A stretch of 64,000 nucleotides of DNA, from NCBI RefSeq assembly GCF_025751585.1, contig NZ_JAOWKX010000003.1, positions 138,323 through 202,322 of the forward strand, given 5' to 3'. The translations under genes and the position numbers were made by a program. The stretch is from Fluctibacter corallii (lineage in GTDB: Bacteria; Pseudomonadota; Gammaproteobacteria; Enterobacterales; Alteromonadaceae). This document shows, piece after piece, positions 35,191 to 55,800 of the stretch. A model generated the notes under the pieces. It made no database searches, was not told where the DNA came from, and was given only the letters and a program-made list of their open reading frames with translations. The stretch's first letter is position 1; each line of letters begins with the position of its first letter.

Positions 35191-35201
35191 TCACCCATGT
35201 T

Positions 35202-36226: not shown

Positions 36227-36373
36227 CCTACCCTCTCTTGCCTCTACGGTCTGAAAAGCGCCTGCCTGCTATAAGGAGCGCGCTTTAATGAACGATATCG
36301 TAGCGTGATAGTATCAGTCGATCATGAAGTGTGATATTAATGTTATTTAACTATATAGTTAAGATTGAATCTA

Positions 36374-37359: not shown

Positions 37360-38616
37360 TTAGTGACTTTCTAGATAGGGCCCTAGTAAACTCGGTAGAG
37401 CAGAGCGTCTGCGACTGCTCGCATACTGTCTGCAATGCATACGTCTTGAATATCTACCCTTTCCAACTGGAATCTTGTATTCACCGTCATCAAGCTCTCC
37501 TCTACCATGAGTTGCGTTAGGTTGATTCTGGTAACATGAATTTGGAATAAACAGTAAATCGCCAGGCTTCAAGAAAAACTCAATGACCTCCATTTTTCTC
37601 AATGTCGCCAGAAATTTTTCAAATAGTTCAGCATCCTGTACATCACTTCCGACATATTTCATTCTGCCTTCAGATGCGTTTGTACAGGTACCTATGATAT
37701 TTGAATCTGAATCAAGATAGATAGGATAATTAATCTCTCCAACGAATCCAGATATCTCGCCGTCAGCAGGACCCGCAATGTGTGCTATTGGCATGTTTGA
37801 CAAACGTTTAAGCTCTTCATTACTGAAGCCGTCTTTGACAAGAGAGCGCTGTAAGAGCGTAGGCGTAGAAATGTACGTCTTCGTTTTTAAATTCAAGATT
37901 CCTTTCAATATTGTTGCATCTACTCGGGTGTATTTTCCAGATAGTACCTCTGAAACGACGTCTTCAGGCGACTTTGAAAGTCGGTTTGCTACGGTGTCAA
38001 TGTCGGTATTTAATTCGTCTAACTTGGCTTTTAAGGCATCTTCTGAATCTAGTTCAGTATACACCGTCCCATCACTGTGTTGAAAAAACCGTCCACCACC
38101 CGTGCTCGCTCCGACCTTTCTCAGCTTCTCTTCTTTAGGTGATATCAAATGGAAACGATTACCACCCCCATGTTCAGATGGGTGGACTACATCATCATGA
38201 TTCAAAAGGGTGGATATAAGCCAGCTTGTCCATTCAGATAAAAATGACTCTTTTAATCTGTCATACTTGTTTAGTGCATAGTTAAATCCGCGCTCTTCGT
38301 TAAAGTCGAGGATTTTGTCCCTAGGCTCTTCTGGCGTGTTAGTAAAATATATAACAGGCAAATCACCATTAGTGTGTGACTCACTTATTAGCCTAAGTAA
38401 TGTATTTACGGGATCTGAACTAGATTTATCCTTTCTTATCTTTTTCAGAAAATTTAATGCGTGGAGTGCGAATCCGACAATCACTTCGTTACCGCATAAA
38501 TAAGGATTTTCGTCACTCAATGTTTGATCAATATATTGACTAATAAAGTCTCTAAATTCATCTGGCATTTCAACTTCTATATAATTTTCGAGATATTTAT
38601 ATTTTGTTAATTCCAT
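37360..38616 (-). CDS. Fe(II)/2-oxoglutarate-dependent oxygenase (clavaminate synthase/TauD-like)
   Basis: 418 aa. H180-x-D182 in FFQHSDGTVYTEL and H370 in NATHGRGEL form a complete iron-binding facial triad. LKPGDLLFIPN precedes the distal His, and Arg at about 391-392 (YSRRMHCRQ) fits the 2-oxoglutarate-binding position. This matches TauD/clavaminate-synthase-like oxygenases that hydroxylate free amino acids or peptide products. GAGGATG lies just before the ATG. As last gene of the minus arm, separated by 244 bp from the DUF1611 gene, it probably tailors a building block or the product. The gap 38617-38860 contains a short TCCGC/GCGGA stem only. Confidence 0.75.
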   Translation of the reverse strand: MELTKYKYLENYIEVEMPDEFRDFISQYIDQTLSDENPYLCGNEVIVGFALHALNFLKKIRKDKSSSDPVNTLLRLISESHTNGDLPVIYFTNTPEEPRDKILDFNEERGFNYALNKYDRLKESFLSEWTSWLISTLLNHDDVVHPSEHGGGNRFHLISPKEEKLRKVGASTGGGRFFQHSDGTVYTELDSEDALKAKLDELNTDIDTVANRLSKSPEDVVSEVLSGKYTRVDATILKGILNLKTKTYISTPTLLQRSLVKDGFSNEELKRLSNMPIAHIAGPADGEISGFVGEINYPIYLDSDSNIIGTCTNASEGRMKYVGSDVQDAELFEKFLATLRKMEVIEFFLKPGDLLFIPNSCYQNQPNATHGRGELDDGEYKIPVGKGRYSRRMHCRQYASSRRRSALPSLLGPYLESH

Positions 38617-38860
38617 CGCTTCATCCTCACACCAAAACCAACGCCAACACCTGGGTCATAAGGTAGTTGCTTTGCCTAGTTGTTTCTGGTCAGTACTTTC
38701 CATTCTGGTTTAGATAATCTTTCCTTAGGTAAATAGAATCGTCGATTACTCTTAAATTAGTTTATGACTCGCACTAAAGGTCTCATCCGCGGGGCAGCGG
38801 ACAAGACGAATGATTCTGAAAAACCTTTTTAGGATTGATTGTTATTAATGTAATTTACGA

Positions 38861-39937
38861 TTATTTGTTCTTGAACCTTGGAAGTTCGCACTGATATGCC
38901 TGCAGCGCGTCGACCAATTTGCCTACACCAAATTTATAAGGATCAGTAGTAGGTAACCCTAATTCTCGCTCGACTTTAGCGACTTCTAGGGCTGCTTCTT
39001 CCGCATTCATTGGGTGCGTATTCAAGCTGATTCCTACCACTTTCGCCGGTTTCGTATATTTAGTAATATATTCGACCCGTTCGATGACTTCTTGGAGGCT
39101 AGGGATGGGGGTTTGCGTCCCATAAATGAACTCTCTGTTTACATGGTGACATAGAATCATTGCATCAGGCACTGCACTTTGAATTACTTGGCAAGTGACG
39201 CCGCCAAATCCTGGGTGTGTGAGTGCTCCCTGTCCTTCAATGATTGCCCAGTCTGCACCTTTAGCCGTTTCGAGTACGACTTGCTCCATCGCACCACCGA
39301 GAAAATCCACGACAACCGAATCAATACAAAGACCACTTCCAGTGAGCATAATACCGGTTTGGCCTGTTGCACCAAAGTTTGCTGCAATATTTCGGCGTTT
39401 TGCTTCTAAAGCAATCTCTATCGCTGTGCTCTTTTTGCCAACGCGGCAATCAGATCCAACAGTGTGAACAACAAATGCTTCAACTTCATCGGCGATGCCT
39501 CTGCCTACCGGTACATTGCTAGGAACTGTTTTGGTGTCAGTTAGCGTTACATTGAACTTCTTCGCCAGCTCAGCAAATTCCTCATCTTCGTTCAGCTTGT
39601 ATACTAATCCAGCAATAATATCTAACTCAGCACTAATGGCATCTTTGATAATAGGTCGCCACTCTGCTGGAAATTTTTTTCCTTGAATTGTGACACCAAT
39701 AAGCATCGTATCTGGGTGAAATGCTCGCGCCTCTTCAAAGGTACCAACAATCGGTATGCCTTCGCCCCATCCTAGAATCTCAGATACATCTTTACCTGCG
39801 TATTCACTATTAATTACTGCGACACATTGTGGTTCGTTGTATTTGATGAATGCGGATGCAATTTTGCTCTGCACTACCCCAAAATTACCTTCACACATGA
39901 TTACAATGCGTTTGTTTTTGTATTGTTCTGAAAGCAT
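38861..39937 (-). CDS. DUF1611 P-loop protein (DgcN-like)
   Basis: 358 aa from the ATG with AGGAGG 6 nt upstream; the in-frame TTG two codons earlier overlaps the ribosome site. The P-loop GSDCRVGKKST (residues 161-171) and DWAIIEGQGALTHPGFGGVT are hallmarks of DUF1611. The characterised relative DgcN is a D-glutamate N-acetyltransferase that works with the racemase-like DgcA. No DgcA neighbour exists here. In this operon it may acylate or otherwise activate an acidic amino acid for the ATP-grasp ligases; that role is inferred. Confidence 0.85.
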   Translation of the reverse strand: MLSEQYKNKRIVIMCEGNFGVVQSKIASAFIKYNEPQCVAVINSEYAGKDVSEILGWGEGIPIVGTFEEARAFHPDTMLIGVTIQGKKFPAEWRPIIKDAISAELDIIAGLVYKLNEDEEFAELAKKFNVTLTDTKTVPSNVPVGRGIADEVEAFVVHTVGSDCRVGKKSTAIEIALEAKRRNIAANFGATGQTGIMLTGSGLCIDSVVVDFLGGAMEQVVLETAKGADWAIIEGQGALTHPGFGGVTCQVIQSAVPDAMILCHHVNREFIYGTQTPIPSLQEVIERVEYITKYTKPAKVVGISLNTHPMNAEEAALEVAKVERELGLPTTDPYKFGVGKLVDALQAYQCELPRFKNK

Positions 39938-39998
39938 TTTCAACCTCCTAAAAAAGAAAATAACAATATTTACCTGTAGACATCCAAACTAAAGCTAA

Positions 39999-40520
39999 TC
40001 AATATTCAGTGCTTTTTTCTAAGCTTGGGCTATCTTCTTCGGTGAAATCGGGAATGGCTAACCTTTCAAAGGTGCAAATTGGGGGGCTGTAGATATGAAT
40101 ACTCGCAGCCGTTTGAGTGCCTCTATTCTCAATAAGGTGAAATATGGCTTCATCATCAATAAAATCGAAATCACCAGTTTCCCGTGTTTTCAACTTCATT
40201 TCACCCTGACCGTCACCATTGAGGCGTAACTGTTGTTCTGTTAACTCGCCGTCAATTACAATGAAACTACAGAAACTGTCACCATGATTATGTAAATGAT
40301 TAGCGATATTTTTAGCCCACACAGCAAGTACAATCTCAACATTTTCGTTTGAATATAAAATGTTTCTTGAATAACTGTTTGCTTCAACCGTGTAGGTATC
40401 TTTAATGTCTAAATAGATTGAGTTTCGATCGAGATCGAGTTGTGGGCAGTTCTCAAACAACTTAGAGAGTTGCTTTTTTATTTTGTCTTTACATGTCAGG
40501 TAATCAGTGACATTGTGCAT
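39999..40520 (-). CDS. Cysteine dioxygenase-type cupin
   Basis: 173 aa. H77-x-H79 in HLHNHGDSFCSF and H128 in FHLIENRG form the 3-His iron site of thiol dioxygenases. C84 and Y144 (IHIYSPP) are spaced like the Cys-Tyr cofactor pair of cysteine dioxygenase, and HIYSPP is a family signature. The expected reaction is cysteine plus O2 to cysteine sulfinate, though other thiol amino acids are possible. GGGAGG precedes the ATG. It is embedded between the MFS and DUF1611 genes, which points to a biosynthetic role rather than cysteine catabolism. Confidence 0.85.
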   Translation of the reverse strand: MHNVTDYLTCKDKIKKQLSKLFENCPQLDLDRNSIYLDIKDTYTVEANSYSRNILYSNENVEIVLAVWAKNIANHLHNHGDSFCSFIVIDGELTEQQLRLNGDGQGEMKLKTRETGDFDFIDDEAIFHLIENRGTQTAASIHIYSPPICTFERLAIPDFTEEDSPSLEKSTEY

Positions 40521-40545
40521 TTTATTTTCCTCCCTGAATCTGTCA

Positions 40546-41742
40546 TTAAGTAATTGAGTTGAGTTTGTTTAAGTAAGATTTTCTAAATTGCACCACGGCG
40601 ACAGTGATTGCCATCATGAGCATAAGGGCAAACGCGACCAATGCGGCTTGTTTAAAATTAATGTCGTTTGCGTAGGAAACGAGCATGCAGCCAAGTGCAG
40701 CAACGCAGGCATTGCTGATATATCTTGTAGAGGCTAGCCTGCCTCTTATCTCGCTAGGAAAAGAGGCTTGTTGGACTGACATCCAACTCACTGTTGAGGC
40801 GGTAGTAAAAAAGCCGAAGAGAATAGTAGAAACTACGACTGCGACACCGTGTCCGTCGTACACATACAGTAGATATAGTGATGCTGCTGACAACATTGAG
40901 GCCAGCGTTGCGGGTAACCTCAAATTTGCTGGGGACACTGCTTTGGCAATAAAAATTCCCCCTGCTATTGCTCCCACGGCAAAGGCGATATCTATAATAC
41001 TTAGCCACCTTGCGAGGTTATCGAAGTTATGTTTAACGGCTGGTGCTAACAATAGATTGAAGAGGGCGATTGCAAGATAATCAAATGTCGCTATGCCAAT
41101 AACAACTATCATCTCTTTGCTGTTCATAATGAACTTGAACACTTTAATCCAACTGCCTGATTGACTATTGTCGCTTGGCTCCGTGGTGGCATTAGGTGCA
41201 AAAAGGCAAACAAACGAGTAGCAAATAAATGCAGCAGTGAACCCCCAAAAGACGCCGAATAATACGGTAGTTGAAGAGTAGCGCTCCAACATCACGCCAG
41301 CTAAGGCCATTCCCAGCAATTGACCGCACTGCAAAGATATAGACATGTAACCATTGAACTTCTCAAGTTTGTCTTTTTCGCTTAAGTCGGCGATCAATAC
41401 AAACACAGAGTTGCGAATAAATGGTTTTGAGATATACAACCCCATTGCAATAAGTAACAGTAGGTTGGGTTGATTTATCAATTCAGGGTTTGCAAAAAGT
41501 ATTGTCCCAATAATGGCACTATTGCTCAATGTAGCAAAAGGCAGAACCCACCGAGCACCGAACTTATCAACGATCGTACCGGCCATACCTTGGATCAAAA
41601 TTGAGACGCCAAACTCTCCCAGAATTGCAAAAGTAAACGCCCATAAGCTGTCAGTGGCTTCATAGAGAAGCATGCCTAGTGCAAGGGTAAAAATCCCCCT
41701 TGCAATATTTATCGAGAACTCTCCGAGCCAGAACAAAGGCAT
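40546..41742 (-). CDS. MFS transporter of the minus arm
   Basis: About 398 aa with 12 likely membrane segments (MFS_3-like). I use the ATG at 41742, which overlaps the ATP-grasp stop (TAATG), the same coupling seen at 51796; an ATG at 41757 would add five residues. Its position between the ligases and the thiol dioxygenase suggests export of the pathway product or intermediate, or self-protection. Confidence 0.8.
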   Translation of the reverse strand: MPLFWLGEFSINIARGIFTLALGMLLYEATDSLWAFTFAILGEFGVSILIQGMAGTIVDKFGARWVLPFATLSNSAIIGTILFANPELINQPNLLLLIAMGLYISKPFIRNSVFVLIADLSEKDKLEKFNGYMSISLQCGQLLGMALAGVMLERYSSTTVLFGVFWGFTAAFICYSFVCLFAPNATTEPSDNSQSGSWIKVFKFIMNSKEMIVVIGIATFDYLAIALFNLLLAPAVKHNFDNLARWLSIIDIAFAVGAIAGGIFIAKAVSPANLRLPATLASMLSAASLYLLYVYDGHGVAVVVSTILFGFFTTASTVSWMSVQQASFPSEIRGRLASTRYISNACVAALGCMLVSYANDINFKQAALVAFALMLMMAITVAVVQFRKSYLNKLNSIT

Positions 41743-42968
41743 TATTGCATTTCCCAATTAAGATTGATTTTGAGGGTTTGCAATGACTTATCTGCCTGCT
41801 CAAGCGCGCGCTCAGGGCTGTCTGCTTTAGCAACCGCCCACACAGTTCTGGCGAAACTATCGGTTACAACGCCCATTGTGGAGCCAGCCTCTTTCATCGG
41901 CATAACTTCAACAACACCTTCAACAGCTTGAGCTGCTTCGATATTATCTATAGAAACTAGTTTGGTATTCGTATCAAATCCCAAGGACAGGAAGCGGATT
42001 GCGGCAGCTTTACCTTCAATTGCATTTACTGCATCTTGCACTTCTGTAAGGACTTTTTCTCCCAATGTCTGGCGTATCTGTATTTCAAATACATCTATAC
42101 CTGTTACGAGTTCGATAAGTTTAAATATGCGATCACCACCTGCTCGAGAATGTGACTCGATTAGTTTGGGTCCTTTTTCGGTTAGCATAACTTCTGTATG
42201 GCTCAAACCGTTTTTGATCCCAACGACACTCAGCATATCGCGCACAAAGCTCTCTATGTTTTCTTTGTCACGTAAAGAAATAGACGCGGGGAAGGCATGA
42301 CCATTCTCGATGAAAGTTTCTTTATCTTTTAACTTTTCAGTAATACCCAAAATAACGTGTTCACCATTCTCAGAAAATGCTTCAACGCTATACTCCTTGC
42401 CTTGTAAAAATTCTTCAGCAATGGCCGGAAATGTATGCTTTGCATCAAAGAAACGTTGCATTTCCTGATTAATATCTGCGGCACTCTTAATTCTGATGAT
42501 GCCGCTACTACCCGTTGAGTCAAAGGGCTTCACGATGATGGGAGCATTAACTTCACGAAAGAAGTCTGTAATATCATCTACCGATGTCACTTCCCTGAAT
42601 TGGGTATCGTCTAATCCTTTGGCGTGCAGTAGTGCGCGTGTTTTTTGTTTGTTGTAAAGTACATCAAGCGTGGCCAAATCTATCGAAAAGGGAAGTTTCA
42701 GTTTTTCCGCGACAGCTATCGCGTGCTCTTGTGCGGTATCGTTAAAACAACAAATGGCATCAACAGGACTATGTTGATGTATAGCATCAGCTACCGCTTG
42801 ATACTCTTGAATAGAAGCATCAGCCTCCATCATCATGATTTTGCGATAAGAAACGTTAACATCTGAGGGGCGGACATTTTTCTTGTCGATAATCAACGAA
42901 ATCTCATGTCCCATTTCTAATGCCTTCTGGTGAGCAGGGCGCACTGTTCCGATAATCAATATATGCAT
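41742..42968 (-). CDS. ATP-grasp ligase A (amino-acid ligase-like)
   Basis: 408 aa. An N-terminal Rossmann-like preATP domain (MHILIIGTVRPAHQKALEMG) is followed by the ATP-grasp fold: IVKPFDSTGSSGI glycine loop, EEFLQGKEYSVEAF, and the metal-binding HTEVMLTEKGPKLIESHSRA. A C-terminal domain follows, as in L-amino acid ligases and related carboxylate-amine ligases. Such enzymes form an acyl phosphate and then an amide bond. The ribosome site AAGGAA is 7 nt upstream. It is closely similar in layout to ligase B just upstream (12-nt gap), suggesting duplication. Confidence 0.88.
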   Translation of the reverse strand: MHILIIGTVRPAHQKALEMGHEISLIIDKKNVRPSDVNVSYRKIMMMEADASIQEYQAVADAIHQHSPVDAICCFNDTAQEHAIAVAEKLKLPFSIDLATLDVLYNKQKTRALLHAKGLDDTQFREVTSVDDITDFFREVNAPIIVKPFDSTGSSGIIRIKSAADINQEMQRFFDAKHTFPAIAEEFLQGKEYSVEAFSENGEHVILGITEKLKDKETFIENGHAFPASISLRDKENIESFVRDMLSVVGIKNGLSHTEVMLTEKGPKLIESHSRAGGDRIFKLIELVTGIDVFEIQIRQTLGEKVLTEVQDAVNAIEGKAAAIRFLSLGFDTNTKLVSIDNIEAAQAVEGVVEVMPMKEAGSTMGVVTDSFARTVWAVAKADSPERALEQADKSLQTLKINLNWEMQ

Positions 42969-42979
42969 TTGATAGTTCC

Positions 42980-44164
42980 TTATTCAAAAATCACTGTGTT
43001 TCTGGCCTGCTCAGCGCTTTCAACTGCTTCCGCCACGGTGTTTCCACTGGTAATCACGTAACCACATCTCGCCAACGAACTGTTCATTTCTGCTATCTTG
43101 TCTCCAACTTTTACAGATAGATTGACTCGAATAACATTGGGTAAATTAATTGCGTCTTCTAAATGCAAAATATTGCTCACCCTACTAACTTTTGGCATGA
43201 CATATCTGACAGCTGCGGCATGATGAAGCGAATTACGGGAAGGCTGCTCAATACCAAGAAGATGTGTTACCGTTCTCTCGAAAACATTGATGCCAGTGGT
43301 TATATGGGTCAACTCCCATATATTGTCACCACCATTTCGAGTGTGAGTCTCGATAATGTGAACCTGAGAATTATTGACTTTAACTTCTGTATGGCAAGGC
43401 CCTGTTTTATGACCTAGCAAGTCCAGTAATAAACAAACTTTTGACTCGATCTTTTGTTGAATTTTTTCGTCAAGTTGAGCGGGCTGATGATGCCCAATTT
43501 CTACAAAATGGGGAGCACCAGTCGTGAGTTTTTCCGTAATTGCCAGTATTTGGTGCTGTCCGCTAAGGGAAATTGACTCTACGCTGAATTCATTGCCTTC
43601 GATAAACTCCTCGATTAACAGATCGCAGTCTTCGGCTGCTTGTGAATAGCCGAGCGCTTCATCAACATTGTCTGTGCTAATTTTTGTGACACCAATACTG
43701 CCCGCACCGTCGTATGGCTTAAGAATGGCGTTTTTATGTTGAGCCAAAAAATTTTTTATTTGCTCAACTGAATTCACTCTTTCAAATGCGACATTGTCTA
43801 ATTCAGTGCCTTTGAGCAATCCACGCATTTTTAACTTGTCACGACTAAATTCGACAGCATGTTCATCACAGTTTGACGGAATACCTAGCGACTTCGCGAT
43901 GATCGCACATGGTTTTAGAGCGAGTTCTTTATATCCTATAACTGCATTATATTGCCTTAAATTATGGAATGACTTTGCAAGACTTATAACGGAATCAACG
44001 TTTTTATAATCAGTAATGAGTAATTCATTAGCTATCTTTTGTTGATATTCGGTAACTTCTTCGCGGACCTGAAATAGGGTGTAATCTATCCCAAGCTCTT
44101 CTAAGCACTGAATATGAAAGTCCTGGGCACCGATCACTAAAACTCTAAAGTCTGATAAAAACAT
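42980..44164 (-). CDS. ATP-grasp ligase B (amino-acid ligase-like), first gene of minus arm
   Basis: 394 aa. ILKPYDGAGSIGV, IEEFIEGNEFSVESI and HTEVKVNNSQVHIIETHTRN align with ligase A motif for motif, so A and B are probable paralogues with different substrates. The ribosome site AAAGG lies about 9 nt before the ATG, inside a 22-bp sequence that is tandemly duplicated. It heads the six-gene minus-strand operon. Confidence 0.88.
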   Translation of the reverse strand: MFLSDFRVLVIGAQDFHIQCLEELGIDYTLFQVREEVTEYQQKIANELLITDYKNVDSVISLAKSFHNLRQYNAVIGYKELALKPCAIIAKSLGIPSNCDEHAVEFSRDKLKMRGLLKGTELDNVAFERVNSVEQIKNFLAQHKNAILKPYDGAGSIGVTKISTDNVDEALGYSQAAEDCDLLIEEFIEGNEFSVESISLSGQHQILAITEKLTTGAPHFVEIGHHQPAQLDEKIQQKIESKVCLLLDLLGHKTGPCHTEVKVNNSQVHIIETHTRNGGDNIWELTHITTGINVFERTVTHLLGIEQPSRNSLHHAAAVRYVMPKVSRVSNILHLEDAINLPNVIRVNLSVKVGDKIAEMNSSLARCGYVITSGNTVAEAVESAEQARNTVIFE

Positions 44165-44168
44165 TTAA

Positions 44169-44212
44169 TTAACCTTTAAGATATGGCTATTTAACCTTTA
44201 AGATATGGCTAT
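44169..44212 (-). repeat. Perfect 22-bp tandem duplication at the minus-arm leader
   Basis: TTAACCTTTAAGATATGGCTAT is present twice, back to back (44169-44190, 44191-44212), 5 bp from the ligase B start. On the minus strand each copy contains AAAGG, so the ribosome site is duplicated in the leader. It may be a recent slippage event or a regulatory element. Confidence 0.85.
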
Positions 44213-45565
44213 ATTTAATCCTTGATTTTGGTAGGAGTGACCCTGCCGCTAAAGCATTAAAAATCAATTTATGAGACAAATACACCGCTTACAAATTTCC
44301 CAAAAGGAAGAAAGCCGAACTTAACAAGAGCGTGATTAACTGCGAAATATAAGACTAAAGATTAACAATATGGATTAGTACATAAAACACACAAAAAATA
44401 TTTCCATTCCCTTTAAAATACGATCATGTAAACCTCAGATCGCTTGGTAGCGAAGCTGATAAAAAATATAAGTCTTTAAAATCAATATCATAAAGGGTGG
44501 TGCGTGGAAAAATACCGCGCATAACTCTTATTATTATTCTAACAATTTATTAACACTCGTAGAGGTGTGCCAAATAATTTGCACAAAAGATACTCGCTTG
44601 GAAAATGTTTTTCAATACCTCAAGGTTAATTTAATGATCTTTTAATATGTTCGATGTTATTAAAAATGTTTATATAATATACCAAATGCTACCGTGGATA
44701 GTTTGGTTACATTTTTAAGTCTAATTGGTTAAAGTTTTGAAAAATAGGCGGCTTTATTAACCTCCTGCCAGCAAGGTGCCCTAACTCTTATTTTTAGTAC
44801 GTTATCAACGAAAATCTGTTTAGGGGTGGCACCCCTATATAGCCTCTCTTGACGCTAAAGTAATATCCATTCGCTTTCGGTTGGGCCGATACTGCAGCGC
44901 ACATTTCAGCCAGCTTAGCTAGTTCGGTTAACGCCATGGTTTCGAATTTTTCAACTCAGTCATTCTCTGAAATCCAACTCCAGTGCCGTAGTACCATGCC
45001 TTATGGCAACATCAGTAAGCAAGCAGCATCCGTAAGAGCTAATGGCGTTAAATGCCTCGGTGTAGATGGTGTTTAGTTCGGTGTTTAGTCGCCGTCAGCA
45101 TGAACCATTTTCGCTTGTCGATGCCTTCACTTCTTGGGCCAATGCGTATGCATAGATACAGAACGGTGAGCTGTAAAGGATAGGTGAGCGATTGAAATTA
45201 AGAGGTCTCGCAATCTGAACTCGAAGGTGTCTCGCTTTAAGATAGTCCATTGAAGTACGCAATGAATAACACAATGTTGCCTCTTCGAGTTAAATTTGCG
45301 GCTTCTTGAGTGGCGCGCTGATTGCCTCAATAAAGCCGAATAAATATGTAAGTGAATAATCTATATGTAAAGAATTTTTCATTTGTATATTGACTTTGTG
45401 TTTTATTTTTAATAATTTTTTGCGCGGCGATTTAAGTGACCTTTTATTTCCAATGTTCACTCTTTCAGGTTTTCTTTTTGTCATTTAAAACGTTCTGTTA
45501 ATTTTATGCTTGATTAACCTGAAATAGGTAAACGGAAGTAATATTTAAATTTATAAGGAGTTAAC
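44213..45565. other. 1.35-kb AT-rich divergent spacer between the two arms
   Basis: No convincing intact gene. It should hold the divergent promoters (for example the very AT-rich 44640-44760). On the minus strand, 45090-44960 has an open frame reading RRLNTELNTIYTEAFNAISS and ending with TGA at 44960. Another, 44937-44794 (47 codons), begins MALTELAKLAEMCAAVSAQP. Frames shift between them (a stop after MVHADGD upstream), so they look like decayed coding sequence of unknown origin. 45130-45560 shows nothing I recognise apart from the AAGGAG site of the next gene. Confidence 0.5.
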
Positions 45566-46315: not shown

Positions 46316-46365
46316 CAAATTAGGCCAGTCAACTACGGTTGGCTGGCTAAGGTGCTGTTTATACT

Positions 46366-47592: not shown

Positions 47593-47614
47593 CCTCAACA
47601 CGATAGGGAAATAA

Positions 47615-47902
47615 ATGCCAACAGTAAAATTACTTAAAAGTGGGATAGATGTCTCACTAGCCGAGAACAGTTCACTATGTGAATTGGACTATGTCGTTCA
47701 ACCGGATCTGATGTTTGGTTGTCGTTCTGCTGCGTGTGGGACTTGTGCCATTAGAGTTGTGGAAGGACTAGATAACCTTTCCCCTAAGAATGAGGCTGAA
47801 GAGCACTTATTAGATACGCTTTGTATCAACGATGAGACACACAGATTGGCCTGTCAGTGCAAGCTTTCTGGTGACGTTGCCATTGAGGCATTGGAAGACT
47901 AG
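47615..47902 (+). CDS. Plant-type [2Fe-2S] ferredoxin
   Basis: 95 aa. C36-x4-C41-x2-C44 (CRSAACGTC) and C80 (RLACQ) give a full [2Fe-2S] ligand set with the spacing of plant-type ferredoxins. It is a small, stand-alone electron carrier. Located in an operon with a diiron oxidase and no reductase, it most likely delivers electrons to that oxidase, with a reductase encoded elsewhere. Confidence 0.9.
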   Translation: MPTVKLLKSGIDVSLAENSSLCELDYVVQPDLMFGCRSAACGTCAIRVVEGLDNLSPKNEAEEHLLDTLCINDETHRLACQCKLSGDVAIEALED

Positions 47903-47918
47903 AGATAAAAGGACTTAT

Positions 47919-49211
47919 ATGATGAAGGGTATTGTGGCATTAGTCCGAGGTGGGAAAACCTTTGTAGATCAGATCTATGCAAGTTGTCAGGCGTTGCAAA
48001 TTGAACTCTATGTTATTTCATCAAAAACCGTTGATGACACGTTAATTAGTAATATGTCAGCGAAAGCGTCTGTGATGAAAGTGATAGAACAGTCAGAGCT
48101 CGACGAAGACAGCATTTTGGGGTTTGTCGAGACACTGAAAAAACAGAATAAACAGGTGCTAGGTTGTATTAGTGTTTGGGAAAACTATAGAACGCTCATG
48201 TCGTCAGTGAATAAGGCGTTGAGTGTACAAGACATGGAGCTAGAACAAGTTGAGTTATTAAGAGACAAGTTTCAGCTGCGCCAAGCGTTGCGTCAACATA
48301 ATCTTAGTCATGTTAACTCCAGGGTTCTCACCGAAACGCTGTTCACTCAACTAGTAGAAGAAGAGGCGGACGCATTTATTAAGCCAAGATGCGGAATTGC
48401 TTCTTATGGTGCCTTCAAATTGAAGCCTGAAACCAAGTGGCAGCAAATCACAGCGATAGCGGAGCAAATACAGACTGATGTTGTCTTCAGTACAAGTTTT
48501 GCGCAGAAGGTCGAATTTGTTGTTGAAGACTATATCCCAGGAATTGAATTTTGTTTTGAAATTATACAGCATCAAGGTCGATGTCATGTCATTGCTATCC
48601 ACGAAAAAATTGAAGTGGGTGAGCAAGCACTAACGACATTAGAGAATGTCAGTGCTTCTCCACCAATTTCTTTACAGAGAAGCGAAATCGAATCAGCTAA
48701 TGCTTGGGTGGTATCAATATTTGACCGATTGCAGCTTGGTAATGGCTGTTATCACCTTGAGGCAAAGTTTGATGGAAAGCAGTGGGAAGTTATAGAAATT
48801 AACCCACGTATTGGTGGTTCTTACATAAACGAGAGCGTTGAACATGTGTCTGGCTATTCATTGCTTGAACTTTGGATTCGTTCATTGTTATCCGAAGATA
48901 GCAATGACTATCTTTCGTTACTAAAACAATTATCTCCGCAATCTGAACACTTCTTTGATCGTGAGCGCGGTGCTTATTTTAGAGCATTTTTCGCAGAGCC
49001 CAATAAAACTATCCGTAAACTCCAGTTTAATTCCGATATACCCACCGTTCATCAAAAGTTGCTGATGGCGGCAGGGCAAATCACACCAGATGCCAACCGT
49101 GAACTTTTCGTGGCGCAAGCTTTATGGTCGTGGCCGGTATCTCAATCGCGTGAGCAAATTCAAAAGCAAATTCGACGTTCCGAGTCTGCACTGGAGGTAG
49201 AATATGAATGA
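47919..49211 (+). CDS. ATP-grasp ligase C
   Basis: About 430 aa from the ATG at 47919, which has AAAAGGA 7 nt upstream; the frame is open to 47832 but that would overlap the ferredoxin gene. ATP-grasp motifs: IKPRCGIASYGAFKL glycine loop, VEDYIPGIEFCFEI, and HLEAKFDGKQWEVIEINPRI with the metal-binding E-x-N. The last motif is more canonical than in ligases A and B. Its 3' end overlaps ligase D by 8 nt. Confidence 0.88.
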   Translation: MMKGIVALVRGGKTFVDQIYASCQALQIELYVISSKTVDDTLISNMSAKASVMKVIEQSELDEDSILGFVETLKKQNKQVLGCISVWENYRTLMSSVNKALSVQDMELEQVELLRDKFQLRQALRQHNLSHVNSRVLTETLFTQLVEEEADAFIKPRCGIASYGAFKLKPETKWQQITAIAEQIQTDVVFSTSFAQKVEFVVEDYIPGIEFCFEIIQHQGRCHVIAIHEKIEVGEQALTTLENVSASPPISLQRSEIESANAWVVSIFDRLQLGNGCYHLEAKFDGKQWEVIEINPRIGGSYINESVEHVSGYSLLELWIRSLLSEDSNDYLSLLKQLSPQSEHFFDRERGAYFRAFFAEPNKTIRKLQFNSDIPTVHQKLLMAAGQITPDANRELFVAQALWSWPVSQSREQIQKQIRRSESALEVEYE

Positions 49212-50481
49212 GGTGTTTTTGGTTCTGGATTGCCCTAAAAGCAGACGAAAAGATTTAGCAACGATTAGTGCCTACACAAACGCTAAATATGGCTTGAAAA
49301 CGCTGTTGTTGGTTGAGCAGGCACTGAGTATCTTTGAGTCTGTTTGTGACGAGGTGATTGAAGTCAACTTGAGTGACCCGAATCTTGATACCTTGGCTGC
49401 TGAGCTTTTAAAGGAGTACAGGGTTTGTGGAGGGATCATATTCGCTGATAAAGCGCTGCAATATGGCACGGTGCTTTTTGAACGTTTAGGTATTATTTGC
49501 GATAGTACTGAGTTGGCGCTGAATGCTTTTAATAAAGCGACACTCAGGTCAACAGAACTCGAACACTTCTCTTCACATCGTAATGAGCACCATTTTATAC
49601 CAGCGTTTGCGCAAATTTATTCGCTTCAAGATTTGCAAGCTTTTGCAACTCGCTTTCCTGATGGGTTTATATTAAAGCCAACATGCGGTTCTGCGAGCCG
49701 AGGTGTACTAAAACTCGATAGTCAATCAGATTTATCTGCTGCATATCGTCAGGTTGAGTGTTACTTGGAGAGCGGGCTTATGTGTGAAGAGCGTATTCCC
49801 ACATTTAGCGAGTTCTCCTTTGACGGCGTGGGAGATGTTTCATTTATCACGGAAAAGATAGTAGCGAAGGGCACATACCCCGTTGAAATTGGACAAGTTT
49901 TGCCAGCTGGAATCGATATTTCTACGACAAAGAAGATCGAAGCTCATGGGCGCTTAATGAATGGATGGGTCGGGCAAAATGTTGGCGCATTTCACAACGA
50001 AATAGCTTATCTGGACCATCAGGGGTTAACGGCGACAGTGGAGGCGAATCGTCGTTCTGCTGGGATGGGTATTTGGAATCTTGCAAACAAGGTTTTCGGT
50101 GTTAACTTCTTCCATTTATGGGTGGACTTAGCATTAGGGAATACGGTTACTCATACCCCATTGTCTCCAAAAGGGAAAGCAATGTCGTGCATGTTAGGGG
50201 CAACAGAAGCACTACTTGACGATATAAGTGATTTTACTATGCAAATAGAAGCCACGCTACGGGAGGAACTGGGTCATAAGATTGAGCTCTTTTCGTTAGA
50301 TTGGCTAAATACTCGGCCATTGTCTGTTCCCATAGTTCCTCGTTCTAATGATGAGTTTATTGCACAGGCAAACGTTTACTGTAGCAATTCAGAATTATCG
50401 ACTGAAAGCATGTTTGAGCAGGTGCAGTTGGCCTGGGAACGCAGTCTCTATAGTGTTAAAAAAGGAAGAAAATGCTCATGA
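49204..50481 (+). CDS. ATP-grasp ligase D (divergent)
   Basis: 425 aa. Glycine loop ILKPTCGSASRGVLKL is clear, and ATVEANRRSAGMGIW occupies the E-x-N metal site, followed by a longer C-terminal region. CEERIPTFSEFSFDG corresponds to the central E-E-x-x motif. It is the most divergent of the five ligases. GGAGGTAGAAT lies just before the ATG within the end of ligase C, so translation is coupled. Confidence 0.82.
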   Translation: MNEVFLVLDCPKSRRKDLATISAYTNAKYGLKTLLLVEQALSIFESVCDEVIEVNLSDPNLDTLAAELLKEYRVCGGIIFADKALQYGTVLFERLGIICDSTELALNAFNKATLRSTELEHFSSHRNEHHFIPAFAQIYSLQDLQAFATRFPDGFILKPTCGSASRGVLKLDSQSDLSAAYRQVECYLESGLMCEERIPTFSEFSFDGVGDVSFITEKIVAKGTYPVEIGQVLPAGIDISTTKKIEAHGRLMNGWVGQNVGAFHNEIAYLDHQGLTATVEANRRSAGMGIWNLANKVFGVNFFHLWVDLALGNTVTHTPLSPKGKAMSCMLGATEALLDDISDFTMQIEATLREELGHKIELFSLDWLNTRPLSVPIVPRSNDEFIAQANVYCSNSELSTESMFEQVQLAWERSLYSVKKGRKCS

Positions 50482-51701
50482 CGTCGTCTCTCTCAATTCT
50501 TATTTTACACCGTGTGCCATTTGAGAATGTGGGCTATGAAAAAGTTATTGACCATACGGTGCACAATGTGACCTATTTGGGGTTGCCTGGTCCGATGAGG
50601 AATATTCCTGAGTCATTACCTTGCCGCAAAGTTGTTATTGAGAATTTGGATAATCTCGTTGATACAGCGGTGAAGCAAACAAAGCAGCATGGGATACATT
50701 TTGATTATGTAATTGGAGTGTCTGAATATCAGCTAATTGCTGCTGCTGAGATAAGAGAACAATTGAATATTAAAGGGGCAAAACCAAAAGAAGTTGAGAG
50801 CGTACGAGACAAGATGGTAATGAAGAGGTTAGTGCAGGCCGCTGGACTGGAAGTACCTCGTTTTTATTCTTTGGCTGATGTGTTGAATCGGGATGTCACC
50901 GAATTGGAGCAGGTGATTTTAAAGCCCAGAGATGGCGCATCTAGCGAAAATGTTATCAAGTTCACTAGTATGAACATGTTGAAGGAAGCGATTTCCGAAG
51001 GGACAACAAATATTCCGGTTCTCGATGTTGAACGATGTTATGACAATTTTGAAGTTGAAGAGTTTGTTGTCGGGGCGATTCTGCACTTAGATGGCATCGT
51101 TGAGCAGGGACGGATCAGTAAACTTGTCACTAGCTGTTATGAAGGTACATGTTTGTCTTTTGCTGAAGGGCATGCACTTGGCTCTTTTCAGATTGAAACC
51201 GACTTGGAATTAATGGCCTTTGCTCAAGACGTTATTACCGCCTTGACTATAGAGTCTGGGGCGTTTCATCTTGAAGTGATTAAGTCAGATAACCGTTTGG
51301 TATTTTTGGAAATTGGTCACCGAGTAGGTGGTGCCAATGTCGCTAGAACCTTTGAGTTAGCAACAGGAATCAATCTCCATCATGCGAATTTGGCAACGCA
51401 GCTTCATTTGCCTATGCAAAATAAGCCTGCGCCATCGCATAAAAGCTATGGTTGGTTCGTTTTTCCCGGACATCATTATGGGTGGGATAAATGCCAACTT
51501 GAAGGGCATGAGGATATAGCGGTACATCAACAAATGTTGGAATGGAACCAACTTTCTAACGATCAAAGTTTACCTAAACATATAACGTATCAGAAGAAAG
51601 AAGTCCCTGCGGCAGGCATTATTCAAGGCGATAACCCGGATCAAGTTGTTCGGTTTATGCAACAAGTATTGAAAGACGTGACAGTGAAAGAGGCAATCTA
51701 G
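50472..51701 (+). CDS. ATP-grasp ligase E
   Basis: 409 aa. VILKPRDGASSENVIKF, VEEFVVGAILHLDG and FHLEVIKSDNRLVFLEIGHR are the ATP-grasp landmarks; H replaces the usual N in the E-x-N metal site (EIGHR). The N-terminus reads LHRVPFENVGYEK. It overlaps ligase D by 10 nt and is followed 2 nt later by a 30-codon ORF. Confidence 0.85.
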   Translation: MLMTSSLSILILHRVPFENVGYEKVIDHTVHNVTYLGLPGPMRNIPESLPCRKVVIENLDNLVDTAVKQTKQHGIHFDYVIGVSEYQLIAAAEIREQLNIKGAKPKEVESVRDKMVMKRLVQAAGLEVPRFYSLADVLNRDVTELEQVILKPRDGASSENVIKFTSMNMLKEAISEGTTNIPVLDVERCYDNFEVEEFVVGAILHLDGIVEQGRISKLVTSCYEGTCLSFAEGHALGSFQIETDLELMAFAQDVITALTIESGAFHLEVIKSDNRLVFLEIGHRVGGANVARTFELATGINLHHANLATQLHLPMQNKPAPSHKSYGWFVFPGHHYGWDKCQLEGHEDIAVHQQMLEWNQLSNDQSLPKHITYQKKEVPAAGIIQGDNPDQVVRFMQQVLKDVTVKEAI

Positions 51702-51703
51702 CA

Positions 51704-51796
51704 ATGCACAGTATACATACAAACTCAGGCTTTAGAGATGGGGGCCAAACGTCATTTAACTCGGTGCCAGATTTTGAAAATGTAGGAGAGGGGTAA
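51704..51796 (+). CDS. Candidate 30-aa peptide gene between ligase E and the RND adaptor
   Basis: An ATG 2 nt after the ligase E stop opens 30 codons. The peptide starts MHSIHTNSGFRDGG, is rich in Ser, Asn, Gly and Asp, and ends VPDFENVGEG. Its TAA overlaps the adaptor ATG (TAATG), so it fits tightly into the operon, and AAAGAGG lies 10 nt upstream. It could be a ribosomal substrate or scaffold for ATP-grasp ligases, as in pheganomycin (PGM1) or microviridins (MdnB/MdnC). Alternatively it is a coupling leader or a decayed duplicate of ligase E, because VPDFENVG resembles VPFENVG near that protein N-terminus. Confidence 0.45.
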   Translation: MHSIHTNSGFRDGGQTSFNSVPDFENVGEG

Positions 51797-52437
51797 TGAG
51801 CTTCAATTGTGTTATTCGAAGCCTCGTTGGCGCCTTGCTGTGTATTTTTGCTTTGAGTTCTCTGGCACAAGAGCAGATAGAAAGTATCTCGTTTTATGGC
51901 GTTGTGAGCTATCAAAAGCAGAAACCGATTTATTCTCAATTTGATGGCATCCTTGAAGAGGTGTATGTCAAAGGCGGAGATAGATTAAAAACTAATCAAC
52001 CTTTGGTGCGAATTACAAGAGAAGAAGTGGGATATAGCGAGATCTTAATTCGCAATACTATTGAAAATGCGGTGGTGTCGAGACTCGATCTGCAAGAAGG
52101 CCACAAAGTCGATCGCTTTAGTCAAATTATGATGGTTGCAGATCTTAGCCAGTACGTTGTGAAAATAGACGTTTCTCAGCGAGACCTACTTAGGCTGGGA
52201 GAGATCGGTGATGCAAGTGTGATTTTCTCACCTAACTCGACGCAACCAAAAGAAATGCAGGGCGAAGTATATGCCATAAATGAACCTCAACAGGGCGATT
52301 TTGGCCTGTTTAGAATTGAGGTGGTCGTAGATTGCACGAAGAAGTGTGGACATCAAGTTCGCTCGGGCAGTATTGCCAAAGTGATGTTGAACTCTGCGAT
52401 AAGTCATCAAAGCACAGCGTCATTAGGCTCTCATTAG
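51796..52437 (+). CDS. Short periplasmic adaptor (MFP) for the RND pump
   Basis: 213 aa with a signal peptide ending near SSLAQ. YSQFDGILEEVYVKGGDRLK is a lipoyl/barrel-sandwich half-motif, and SRLDLQEGHKVDRFSQIMMV is the returning half. Only a few residues separate the two halves, so the alpha-helical hairpin that normally contacts TolC is missing. The beta-barrel domain follows. A normal MFP is about 350-400 aa. It is coupled to the upstream small ORF and ends 1 nt before the RND gene. Confidence 0.72.
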   Translation: MSFNCVIRSLVGALLCIFALSSLAQEQIESISFYGVVSYQKQKPIYSQFDGILEEVYVKGGDRLKTNQPLVRITREEVGYSEILIRNTIENAVVSRLDLQEGHKVDRFSQIMMVADLSQYVVKIDVSQRDLLRLGEIGDASVIFSPNSTQPKEMQGEVYAINEPQQGDFGLFRIEVVVDCTKKCGHQVRSGSIAKVMLNSAISHQSTASLGSH

Positions 52438-52438
52438 T

Positions 52439-55400
52439 ATGTTTAGATTATTCGCGAACAATCGTAGTTCATTTATCTCGCTTGCTTTGTTTTTGGTATG
52501 TTTTGGATTTTACCAATTTTTGCACCTGCCCATTTCTCTCTACCCCAATACCAGTAAGCCTGTCATCAAACTGCAAATGTTTTACAAGCAGGATATCGCT
52601 CAGTTTATGCAGTTTTGGGGTGAAAAAATTGAAACCTCGCTGAAGAATATTAAGGATGTAGAGTTAGTAGAAGGGGAATATCGTCAGGGTAAAGCCGTTT
52701 ACTACATTCATTTTGACTGGAACAAAGATAATGATGAGGCCATTAGAGATGTCGGCTCTATTGCTGCATCTTATCAAGCCCAATTATCACGCGAGCTTCC
52801 TCCTTTCAAAGTCGGATTTTATAATCCGGGCAGTGAGTGTTATCTAGTGGTTGACTCTGACAAACTTGACGCCGATGAATTAAGCCACATATTGGCGAAT
52901 AAGTTGCAACCCGCATTAGATGAAATACCCGGTGTCTCTAAGTCAATGGTTACCCTTTTCGGTGAACAACACGTAACCGTCAAGATTGATCCGCTAAAAG
53001 TTGCAGAATACAAACTCTCCATACAAGATGTGATGGATATCATTCAGATCCACGAGTTTGATTATGCACTAGGTAATTTGAGTACACAGCGTAATGGTCA
53101 AATAGCCATGAGAGTTGAACGTGGTATCGAGGATATGCAACAGATTGAGCAGATTACGGTTGGTAAGATCGCTGGCCGCGAAATCAAGCTTAACGAAATT
53201 GCTGAGGTTGTTTTTACACGCTCTAAAATGTCTCGCATGCTACAGCTTGATGGTAGAAATGCGGTAGCTGTTGCGGTTTGGCCTAAACCTGACGCGAACC
53301 TATACCAACTTGCTCGCGCGTTTTTTACAACAAGTGAAGACTTTGTAAAAGATATTGGCAATATTACCGTCTTAAACGATCCGTCTATTTTCATCGGTAA
53401 GGCGATGAAGGCTGTGATGTTTGCAATATTTACGGGTATGGCAATCGCATCTTTGTCAGTGCTATTGTTTTTTCGTTCATTTAGTAAGACGTTGGTTGTT
53501 TCTCTTGCAATGCCGCTATCTCTAATGGGGGCTGGTGCAATTATGCATTTTAGCGGTGTAGGAATTAATTTGTTGTCATTGGGTGCAATGAGTGTGTCGA
53601 TTGGTATGGTTATCGATGGCGCAGTTGTGGTCGTTGATAATATCTATTATCACCAGAAACGACAAACAGGGTTAACTACGTTTGATGCTGTACGTGAGGT
53701 AGCACCCTCTATTGTGGCATCAGTAATTACAACAATTATTGTATTCATGCCAATGGCATTTACTGCCCCTATAGCCTCAGCATTACTTAGCGACATTGCC
53801 TTAGTCGTTATTTCAATCATGTTGTTTAGCCTGTTTATTAATCTCATTTTCTTGCCTGTTATTTTGTCTTATATGCCGCAAAAGCAAGCGAACTATGGTT
53901 TGCTCGGCAGGTTGATTGAGGCGCTACTTAATGCATGGGCAAATAGCTATCTATGGTGCTTGCGGCATGTTCTACAGAGAAAATTGCTACAGCTGGTTAT
54001 TATTATTTGCACCGTTGGAATGGGAGTCTATTCAGCGCAACTATTACCAACGATTAAGCAAGAACTTATCGCCAAACCCAAAGCAGAAATTATAGATGTT
54101 ATCGTTGGATTCAAAAAAGATGGGCTTGAAATGCGAGAACGTGCCCAGTTAGCTGAAACAGTAAGGCAAGAAATTAACAGCCAGTTTGGTGACAAGATTA
54201 AATTTGCCTATACAGATATACGTGCAAATGCTGCTTATATTTCAATACATCTGACCAGCCACGAGGTGTTTGAGCAAACTTTCGCAGATATTCAGGCCAT
54301 GTTGAAAAGCGATGAAGAATTAGATTTAGAGGCGATGCCTTGGATAACATCTGCACTCGCGGTGCCTGATTTCCCCGCGTTGCGATTATTAGTCACCGAA
54401 GAAACCGAGCAACAGAGACGTCAGCAGTTAATTAATATACAGGCACATTTTAAGGCGCACGAAGCGGTTTCTCGAGTCAAAATCACACCTAAACCTCAAA
54501 AAAGCACTAAGTTTGCCTTAAGTATTCAGCATGATGTACTCACCAATTTCTTTCCTTTAGCTGAACATAAGCAAATTCAAGAGGATTTAGCTGATTACGT
54601 TGGTTTGGTTATTGAAGAGAAATACCTAGCACAAATTGAGATAGAGGGTGAAAAGTTGATGCTCTATTCTCAGGTGGGGAGTGAGTTAATTGACCAAGTT
54701 GAAAGAATTGGAGCGTTGCCTTTCTTCTACAAAGATAAGATTTTCCACCTAAGGGATTTGCTAGATATTCAGGAAACTAAAGAGTGGAAATTGTATTACA
54801 GTCGGAATACGCAGCCAATTTACATGGCGGAAATCTGGCTGAAAGACAGCGCTATAGAATCGCCGCAACAAGTACTAGAAACATTCTATCAAACCTTGCC
54901 TAAAGGCCAAGCCATTCCTTTCATCGTTGATCAACCTGATATTGTCGTAAAAGAAGGCATTGATTCGCTATTGAAAGCGTTGGCGCTGGCATTTGCATTG
55001 GTGTTTTTATGTGTGCACTTTATGTTCAAGCGCGTATTAGTTGGCATTTTGATTTGTGCAGTCATTCCATTTGGAATCATGGGGGCAATTATTGCACTGG
55101 CCTATTTTGAGAGCACTTTGTCATTAAATTCGATGCTTGGCATTATTATGTTATGCGGGATTTCTGTAAACAATTCAATTATTTTTGTTGACGTTTATCA
55201 GCGAATTGCAAGCAGGTTTGAGCATAAAATTGATGCGGTAGTGGAAGCTGCAAAGATGCGATTTCGTGCCATTATGGTCACCAATATGACCACTATCGCG
55301 GGTCTAGCACCATTGGCGTTTGGTTTAGGAAGTAGCGGCAAAATACTCCAACCTTTGGGGATTTCAGTCACCTTTGGCATAGCCATCGGTACGTTCTTCA

Positions 55401-55495
55401 CTATGTATTTGATTCCCATTTTGCTTCTCTATGTTATGCCTATACAGCATGGCAACCAGCAACAGGAGTGGCAAGGTAAGGCGTTAACAAGCTAG
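52439..55495 (+). CDS. RND-family efflux transporter
   Basis: 1018 aa, the usual RND size, with two repeats of one plus five membrane helices around two large periplasmic loops. GMVIDGAVVVVDNIYYH is the TM4 proton-relay motif, with a single Asp followed by Gly rather than the D-D of AcrB. LCGISVNNSIIFVDVYQR is the matching TM10-11 segment, and EIPGVSKSMVTLFGEQHVTV belongs to the porter domain. It probably exports the cluster product from the periplasm, using an outer-membrane channel encoded elsewhere. 55496-55683 holds nothing I recognise. Confidence 0.88.
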   Translation: MFRLFANNRSSFISLALFLVCFGFYQFLHLPISLYPNTSKPVIKLQMFYKQDIAQFMQFWGEKIETSLKNIKDVELVEGEYRQGKAVYYIHFDWNKDNDEAIRDVGSIAASYQAQLSRELPPFKVGFYNPGSECYLVVDSDKLDADELSHILANKLQPALDEIPGVSKSMVTLFGEQHVTVKIDPLKVAEYKLSIQDVMDIIQIHEFDYALGNLSTQRNGQIAMRVERGIEDMQQIEQITVGKIAGREIKLNEIAEVVFTRSKMSRMLQLDGRNAVAVAVWPKPDANLYQLARAFFTTSEDFVKDIGNITVLNDPSIFIGKAMKAVMFAIFTGMAIASLSVLLFFRSFSKTLVVSLAMPLSLMGAGAIMHFSGVGINLLSLGAMSVSIGMVIDGAVVVVDNIYYHQKRQTGLTTFDAVREVAPSIVASVITTIIVFMPMAFTAPIASALLSDIALVVISIMLFSLFINLIFLPVILSYMPQKQANYGLLGRLIEALLNAWANSYLWCLRHVLQRKLLQLVIIICTVGMGVYSAQLLPTIKQELIAKPKAEIIDVIVGFKKDGLEMRERAQLAETVRQEINSQFGDKIKFAYTDIRANAAYISIHLTSHEVFEQTFADIQAMLKSDEELDLEAMPWITSALAVPDFPALRLLVTEETEQQRRQQLINIQAHFKAHEAVSRVKITPKPQKSTKFALSIQHDVLTNFFPLAEHKQIQEDLADYVGLVIEEKYLAQIEIEGEKLMLYSQVGSELIDQVERIGALPFFYKDKIFHLRDLLDIQETKEWKLYYSRNTQPIYMAEIWLKDSAIESPQQVLETFYQTLPKGQAIPFIVDQPDIVVKEGIDSLLKALALAFALVFLCVHFMFKRVLVGILICAVIPFGIMGAIIALAYFESTLSLNSMLGIIMLCGISVNNSIIFVDVYQRIASRFEHKIDAVVEAAKMRFRAIMVTNMTTIAGLAPLAFGLGSSGKILQPLGISVTFGIAIGTFFTMYLIPILLLYVMPIQHGNQQQEWQGKALTS

Positions 55496-55782: not shown

Positions 55783-55800
55783 TTCTGAATGTCCTTTGTC

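Follow-up and report, generated by a model that had tools for sequence, protein, structure and literature searches.

A repeat-bordered island with five ATP-grasp ligases and an MboA-like diiron oxidase in Fluctibacter corallii, predicted to make a short oxidised peptide

The window analysed here is a 64,000-nucleotide stretch of a 4.12-Mb draft genome (19 contigs) of Fluctibacter corallii (assembly GCF_025751585.1). Positions 37360–55495 of it carry 14 genes (g1–g14) in two divergent operons, with g1–g6 on the minus strand and g7–g14 on the plus strand. The families encoded and the residues they conserve suggest that the island containing these operons yields a short oxidised peptide for export, which would be assembled by stand-alone ATP-grasp ligases rather than by a non-ribosomal peptide synthetase (NRPS). 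We give this prediction an even chance of being right. In it, the cysteine dioxygenase (CDO) g3 would oxidise cysteine to cysteine sulfinate, the Fe/2-oxoglutarate (Fe/2OG) oxygenase g1 would hydroxylate or desaturate a free amino acid to give an unusual building block, and the DgcN-like protein g2 would acylate or otherwise prepare an amino acid, perhaps an acidic one. The ligases g5, g6, g10, g11 and g12 would join the residues through ATP-driven amide bonds, up to five in number. By analogy with MboA and MboB of the mangotoxin pathway, the haem-oxygenase-like diiron oxidase (HDO) g7, with electrons delivered via the ferredoxin g9, would desaturate the side chain of a residue other than arginine in the assembled peptide, and the major facilitator superfamily (MFS) proteins g4 and g8 together with the resistance-nodulation-division (RND) pump g13–g14 would export the product. 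The initial annotation had proposed an oxidised, exported, NRPS-independent oligopeptide-like product. This stays the best reading, but the core of the locus is less isolated than had been thought, as the combination of an HDO with ATP-grasp ligases is an already published class.

The diiron oxidase g7 and the right-arm core

The product of g7 matches PF14518 above the cut-off, resembles known HDO folds and carries all six ligands of the three-histidine, three-carboxylate set. A profile of 30 homologs, picked for spread from 139 HDO matches (120 of them listed), found two solved chains: MboA (9YPI) at E 1.6e-28 and, at E 2.2e-11, 3dde, which is uncharacterised. MboA is the peptide acetylenase of mangotoxin. 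According to its description, it acts on a tripeptide made by ATP-grasp enzymes, has the dedicated reductase MboB and uses the ligands E86, H89, E143, H172, D176 and H181, with Tyr82 as the likely base and Asp90 as a flexible residue, while N57, D61 and D139 grip the guanidinium of the C-terminal arginine of the substrate (PMC13185094). When the alignment was read by eye, the equivalents in g7 lay at a constant offset of +16 (E102, H105, E159, H188, D192 and H197 for the ligands, Y98 and D106 for the other two), and each was kept in 30 of 30 homologs. The arginine clamp is replaced in g7 by S73, Q77 and S155, and N, D and D were found at these sites in none of the 30 rows. Arg74, beside the replaced sites, is invariant in the aligned homologs. 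The predicted model of g7 (pLDDT 93) returned 3dde, CADD and UndA as its top matches in a fold search; MboA was not among the 50 matches listed, perhaps because the database copy ends in April 2026, and the connection between g7 and MboA thus rests on sequence.

By sequence, g7 is related to MboA-type peptide acetylenases, and by analogy it would carry out a two-step desaturation of a side chain. The loss of the arginine-holding residues counts against carrying the comparison over in full, since the substrate, and even the reaction, may differ. It is a substantial minority possibility that the peptide is made as proposed but that g7 performs another HDO reaction on it, such as N-oxygenation, C–C cleavage or ring closure, giving a different oxidation. 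HDOs catalyse many reactions, as a 2026 review describes (PMC13108848), and both the replaced recognition residues with the adjoining invariant Arg74 and the order of the fold matches are consistent with such a departure. Set against this, no other solved chain comes close to MboA in sequence match, the equivalents of the base and of the flexible aspartate are both universal among the homologs, and a redox partner adjoins the HDO just as MboB adjoins MboA. We therefore keep to desaturation as the preferred reading, in which g7 should be built like MboA but take a residue other than arginine; that this residue is acidic or polar is a guess.

A scan of species genomes with the HDO yielded 131 relatives, of which the best 80 were kept as loci. 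Each ATP-grasp region in them was assigned to its best-matching query from the window, and some of the low counts reflect contig ends. Ligases of the g10 type were found in 79 of the 80 loci, of the g12 type in 75 and of the g11 type in 49, together with a ferredoxin in 60, a DgcN-like protein in 26 and a g8-type MFS protein in 21. Two or three ligases stand beside the HDO in 75 of the 80, from Pseudomonas to Streptomyces, and Burkholderia, Aeromonas and one cyanobacterium are also among the relatives; the number of ligase regions was zero in one locus, one in 4, two in 26 and three in 49, and never exceeded three. In no ligase region of these loci was g5 or g6 the best match. The core of the right arm thus occurs widely, and none of the 80 loci compared has as many ligases as the window.

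Among 345 genomes of the order, 15 including the window's own gave an HDO match. Identity was about 50% in three of them and about 30% in two, while another nine matched no better than E 6e-6. Shewanella denitrificans and Photobacterium sp. SP02 own the nearest HDOs (82%). Published genome mining had located an ATP-grasp gene close to 1447 HDOs, in clusters of at least 25 types (PMC13185094), and the general kind was therefore already known.

Two further occurrences of HDO relatives were seen. The window's own genome has another HDO-like ORF, only distantly related (24% identity, E 2.9e-7), near an RND permease on a different contig (C14; positions 9490–15563 of locus L128). On the Paraburkholderia phymatum symbiosis plasmid pBPHY02, an HDO relative with two ATP-grasp genes (positions 5974–9224 of locus L103) is found between nifA/nifE/nifN and nodB/nodC, and related HDO matches are present on other Paraburkholderia plasmids.

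Ligases, left-arm enzymes and the linkage of the two arms

The PF13535 (ATP-grasp_4) model gave seven matches in the whole genome, and the five above the curated cut-off were exactly g5, g6, g10, g11 and g12, which indicates clustering beyond chance; the score of g11 in Table 1 is slightly under the cut-off. Lys148, Glu184, Glu259, Glu271 and Arg275 (g6 numbering), which presumably bind ATP and metal in the ATP-grasp fold, are common to all five proteins. We count g11 and g12 as ATP-grasp enzymes despite their divergence because these invariant residues are kept and because both types recur beside HDOs elsewhere, and the five ATP-grasp enzymes of the initial annotation are borne out. L-amino-acid ligases can be recognised by the LAL_C2 domain, which is present in g5 and g6 (44 and 57.7 bits, cut-off 29.4) and was not found in g10, g11 or g12. 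The nearest solved chain to g6 is 3vot, the L-amino acid ligase BL00235 (E 4.5e-18).

The predicted fold of g1 is clavaminate-synthase-like, as in hydroxylases of free amino acids, and the iron-binding His-x-Asp...His motif (H180, D182 and H370) was found in all 18 homologs aligned, which were picked for spread from 40 matches. We predict from the model that g1 is a 2-oxoglutarate-dependent amino-acid hydroxylase. Homologs of g1 also occur in Bacillus cereus and Paenibacillus. Searches of plasmids with g1 and with g3 gave no match. The g2 protein scored 245.6 bits against the DgcN N-acetyltransferase equivalog NF041892, below its cut-off of 480, and we therefore claim for it only a related role in acyl transfer or amino-acid preparation. 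A published account (PMC12363236) names dgcN as the key gene in a route that forms acidic D-amino acids and their amides by racemisation.

Aligned with the solved mammalian CDO, g3 keeps Y58, R60, H86, H88, C93, H140 and Y157, presumably the iron and substrate residues, including the Cys-Tyr pair. With these placeable residues retained, cysteine sulfinate is likely to be its product; that the sulfinate forms part of the final product we only infer. A different role for g3 is somewhat unlikely, namely that it does not feed the peptide and instead lowers cysteine or supplies sulfite or a sulfonamide-type unit, with the TauE/SafE-type permease (TauE) exporting the oxidised sulfur. The position of the TauE gene inside the repeats that border the island fits such a role, as do the cupin SbzM, which converts cysteine to a sulfonamide precursor according to PMC6331615, and the location of some SbzM homologs next to ATP-grasp genes (PMC9113183). 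However, g3 lies within the left operon between g2 and g4, it aligns with CDO and keeps the Cys-Tyr pair and the arginine, and no SbzJ-like aldehyde dehydrogenase was found among the island proteins scanned. Supply of cysteine sulfinate to the peptide remains our preferred role for g3.

Two trees bear on whether the arms belong together. The HDO tree, built by a quick method, contained 89 rows, of which 80 were the loci, 8 other proteins and one the window. The clade of g7 comprises 27 loci, and 26 of them have a DgcN-like gene, against none of the 53 outside it; in the one exception (L006), no more than 4.1 kb precede the HDO. Ligases of the g11 type (>70% coverage) show the reverse, with none in the 27 loci and 46 in the 53, and the window has both. 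The DgcN tree, built by a careful method, included 26 HDO loci, 12 generic loci with a match to g2 (all 38 passing 70% coverage) and the window. The generic DUF1611 proteins came from 229 genomes of the class, 22 of which had a match over the cut-off, and 30 of the 41 places listed were fetched. In this tree the left-arm protein g2 groups with the 26 HDO-linked proteins (support 97/88), apart from the 12 generic ones.

When g6 was used to search 375 genomes of the family, four besides the window's own were found at E 1e-30. One of them (G979, loci L167/L172) contains homologs of g6, g5 and g4 in that order (44, 40 and 37%), continuing with a further ligase, a 2OG-Fe_Oxy_2 enzyme, two metabolic enzymes and a pump of the g13–g14 type (28 and 36%). 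Another (G373, loci L169/L173) has homologs of g4 and g5 (47 and 40%) with a TIM-barrel gene in one arm, and in the facing arm DgcN, an aminotransferase, ligases of the g12 and g10 types, a luciferase-like monooxygenase and a g13–g14-type pump. The remaining two are a genome (G403) with other ligases and no match to the pump, and one (G1004) with a cluster like that of Pseudoalteromonas xiamenensis. Left-arm ligases and right-arm-type pumps are thus combined in two of the 375 family genomes.

The P. xiamenensis-type cluster itself (locus L102, positions 1355–16070, and L175) comprises three ATP-grasp genes, MFS and RND transporters, a branched-chain transaminase, a DUF6421 protein and a flavin monooxygenase; L102 also has a DAHP synthase/chorismate mutase, and no HDO is annotated in either locus. 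The DUF6421 protein was considered as a relative of g1 and rejected, as no similarity was found.

The arms look linked, given the DgcN lineage shared with the HDO subclade and the combinations in G373 and G979. Parts of the left and the right arm thus reappear side by side in other genomes, but with different oxygenases. Co-occurrence of the two arms in other genomes had been named beforehand as a test, and the outcome is mixed: the whole set was not seen elsewhere, but DgcN occurs with the HDO subclade, and left-arm ligases and MFS proteins occur with g13–g14-type pumps.

Several observations weigh against a single pathway spanning both arms. The complete gene set was found in no other genome examined, and g1, sought in 196 genomes of the family and 369 of the class, was present only in the window's own. 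Matches to g1, g3 and g4 were found in none of the 80 HDO loci. The names of S. denitrificans and Photobacterium sp. SP02, to which the nearest HDOs belong, do not appear in the 40 matches to g1 or in the 120 listed of 173 matches to g6, a comparison limited by its word filter and by nameless matches. A search of G373 and G979 for an HDO, run without a positive control, gave no match. The trees have their own weaknesses, as the placement of g7 in the DgcN clade is moderately supported (SH-aLRT 87 and 82) with the adjacent P0004 and P0005 on long branches, and g2 itself sits on a long branch (0.89). It is conceivable, if unlikely, that two pathways share one island, the right arm making an HDO-modified peptide and the left arm another, cysteine-derived short peptide. 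The absence of g1, g3 and g4 matches and of g5/g6-type ligase regions from the 80 HDO loci, the outcome for the owners of the nearest HDOs, and the g6-g5-g4 set of G979, which stands without an HDO match, would suit this arrangement. It sits poorly with the membership of g2 in the HDO-linked DgcN lineage, with the left-arm ligase and MFS homologs found in G373 and G979 beside g13–g14-type pumps and g12/g10-type ligases, and with the lack of an RND-type pump in the left arm. We continue to prefer one pathway drawing on both arms.

Layout and borders of the island

The features of the island are listed in Table 1. Coordinates and strands of the 14 genes agree with the initial annotation, and each of its assignments to DUF1611, cysteine dioxygenase, HDO, ferredoxin, the two MFS proteins and the RND pump with adaptor has a family match; its Fe/2OG oxygenase is supported by the predicted fold of g1 and not by a family match. 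No NRPS or polyketide synthase (PKS) domain was found among the 21 window proteins scanned with Pfam and NCBIfam, in agreement with the same source. Some details of its layout are corrected here. Overlaps are found between g10 and g11 (8 bases) and between g11 and g12 (10 bases), and g4 most likely starts at 41742, with a TAATG overlap with g5. The most likely start of g10 is 47919, so that an overlap with g9 is not required, and g1 and g2 are separated by a 244-base gap.

Table 1. Positions in the window, strands and supporting matches of the island features
Feature	Position	Strand	Match or remark
Left copy of ~145-bp direct repeat	35198..35342		88% identical to right copy
TauE/SafE-type permease	35468..36226	-	PF01925, 160 bits; inside island, pathway membership putative
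LysR-type regulator	36365..37285	+	LysR_substrate and HTH_1; inside island; divergent to TauE/SafE permease
g1, clavaminate-synthase-fold Fe/2OG oxygenase	37360..38616	-	Predicted fold; no Pfam or NCBIfam match
g2, DgcN-like DUF1611 protein	38861..39943 (likely start 39937)	-	PF07755, 219 bits
g3, cysteine dioxygenase	39999..40520	-	PF05995 (CDO_I), 53.3 bits, cut-off 23
g4, MFS transporter	40546..41757 (likely start 41742)	-	PF07690 (MFS_1), 73 bits
g5, ATP-grasp ligase, L-amino-acid-ligase type	41742..42968	-	ATP-grasp_4 72.8 bits, LAL_C2 44 bits
g6, ATP-grasp ligase, L-amino-acid-ligase type	42980..44164	-	ATP-grasp_4 70.4 bits, LAL_C2 57.7 bits
Divergent intergenic region between the operons	44165..45565		No ORF of note
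g7, MboA-like HDO, GTG start	45566..46315	+	PF14518 (Haem_oxygenas_2), 32.7 bits, cut-off 28.9
g8, MFS transporter	46366..47592	+	PF07690, 97 bits
g9, stand-alone 2Fe-2S ferredoxin	47615..47902	+	PF00111 (Fer2); cysteines 36, 41, 44, 80
g10, ATP-grasp ligase	47919..49211	+	ATP-grasp_4 59 bits (scored on longer ORF from 47832)
g11, divergent ATP-grasp ligase	49204..50481	+	PF13535 26.4 bits, cut-off 27
g12, divergent ATP-grasp ligase	50472..51701	+	PF13535 27.1 bits, cut-off 27
g13, short RND periplasmic adaptor (HlyD-type, membrane-fusion protein)	51796..52437	+	HlyD_D23 33.9, HlyD_3 33.7 bits
g14, RND permease	52439..55495	+	ACR_tran, 398 bits
Right copy of ~145-bp direct repeat	55797..55941		Overlaps 3' end of small ORF 55879-56235

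The direct repeats, 145 bp at 88% identity or 154 nt at 86% in another comparison, contain a long hairpin, and a genome search found only these two copies. They enclose about 20 kb with the TauE and LysR-type regulator genes and g1–g14. The right copy looks as if insertion had duplicated the end of a gene. In three related genomes (G272, G351 and G353) a homolog of the gene at 33623–34576 is separated from the PhoH gene (56933–58330 in the window) by about 0.9, 1.1 and 1.4 kb, and the interval contains other ORFs but no match to cluster genes. The corresponding gap in a fourth (G292) measures 5.6 kb and has no cluster genes either; for a fifth (G090), no left neighbour was seen within the fetched stretch. 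The repeat borders and the lack of cluster genes at the matching site in G272, G351 and G353 support acquisition of the island as one unit. The LysR-type regulator is possibly the regulator of the cluster. The TauE/SafE permease may be connected with oxidised sulfur from the cysteine dioxygenase.

Within the 1.4-kb gap between the arms, a 22-base unit occurs twice in tandem (44165–44209, 95% identical) immediately upstream of g6. Promoter-like and terminator-like sites in this gap showed no excess over shuffles, Rfam gave no match at the gathering score in 34500–57500, and no compelling precursor gene for a graspetide or another ribosomal peptide was seen among the small ORFs of five gaps (the first eight listed per gap).

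Comparison with known systems

Searches of an open-access library, in which bioRxiv is covered only by copies in PMC, turned up no paper linking this gene set to a product; the initial annotation likewise knew of no characterised pathway with it. The Pbo cluster was considered and set aside, being described as NRPS/PKS-like in PMC8473136, with no link found. What is new here is a variant among the peptide pathways that work without an NRPS and use an HDO for tailoring. Work on HDOs that modify peptides began only recently, and about a dozen HDOs of any kind had been validated by the time of the 2026 review (PMC13108848). The group represented in the window is MboA-like, lacks the arginine clamp, mostly has a stand-alone ferredoxin and in one subclade has a DgcN-like partner. 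Through it, the range of substrates, the coupling to redox partners and the part played by the DgcN-like protein become directly testable, and it points to largely unexplored small-peptide metabolites. The most specific version of the proposal is a long shot, in which an island spread with its bordering repeats would make a peptide that bears cysteine sulfinate as one residue together with an amino acid containing an alkene or alkyne, which an MboA-type enzyme driven by ferredoxin would install on a residue other than arginine. If true, a five-ligase, NRPS-free pathway would give rise to a new kind of oligopeptide, with a sulfinyl group and an unsaturated warhead.

Among characterised systems, the mangotoxin mbo cluster (MboA–MboF) of Pseudomonas syringae (PMC13185094) shares an HDO with the same ligand pattern, a dedicated Fe2S2 redox partner and stand-alone ATP-grasp ligases. 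It differs in having two ligases, the flavin reductase MboB and an arginine deiminase, whereas the window has five ligases and a stand-alone ferredoxin, no deiminase among its scanned proteins, and an HDO in which the arginine-binding residues are replaced. The window also adds the CDO, the clavaminate-fold enzyme, the DgcN-like protein and the RND pump. The SbzM-type clusters found beside ATP-grasp genes (PMC9113183) resemble it in placing a cysteine-oxidising cupin near such genes, but there SbzM and SbzJ lead to a sulfonamide precursor, while the window has a CDO with the classic residues and no SbzJ was seen.

The other relatives are uncharacterised clusters. Those with an HDO, a ferredoxin and three ATP-grasp genes, found in Pseudomonas tremae (L060), Streptomyces orinoci (L055), Amazonocrinis (L075) and on a Burkholderia stagnalis plasmid (L082), share ligases of the g10, g11 and g12 types, often in the same order, but are without DgcN, g1, g3, g4 and ligases of the g5/g6 type. 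The closest HDO clade after the 82% matches is that of the Caballeronia (L002) and Pseudoalteromonas B95 (L003) clusters. These have a DgcN of the same lineage and ligases of the g10 and g12 types, and L003 also an RND pump and a ferredoxin, but they differ in an EPSP synthase, an aminotransferase and a PhyH-type Fe/2OG enzyme, and lack g11, g5/g6 and the CDO. The same composition of HDO, DgcN and two ligases with an EPSP-synthase-like protein, a HisC-like aminotransferase and a PhyH-type enzyme was seen in L005 and in Streptomyces loci such as L028, and L003 adds PhzF. Finally, G373 and G979 share with the window the g4 and g5 or g6, g5 and g4 homologs, further ligases and the g13–g14-type pump, and G373 also DgcN and divergent arms; they differ in having no HDO match and no CDO; the oxygenase of G373 is instead a luciferase-like monooxygenase and that of G979 a 2OG-Fe_Oxy_2 enzyme.

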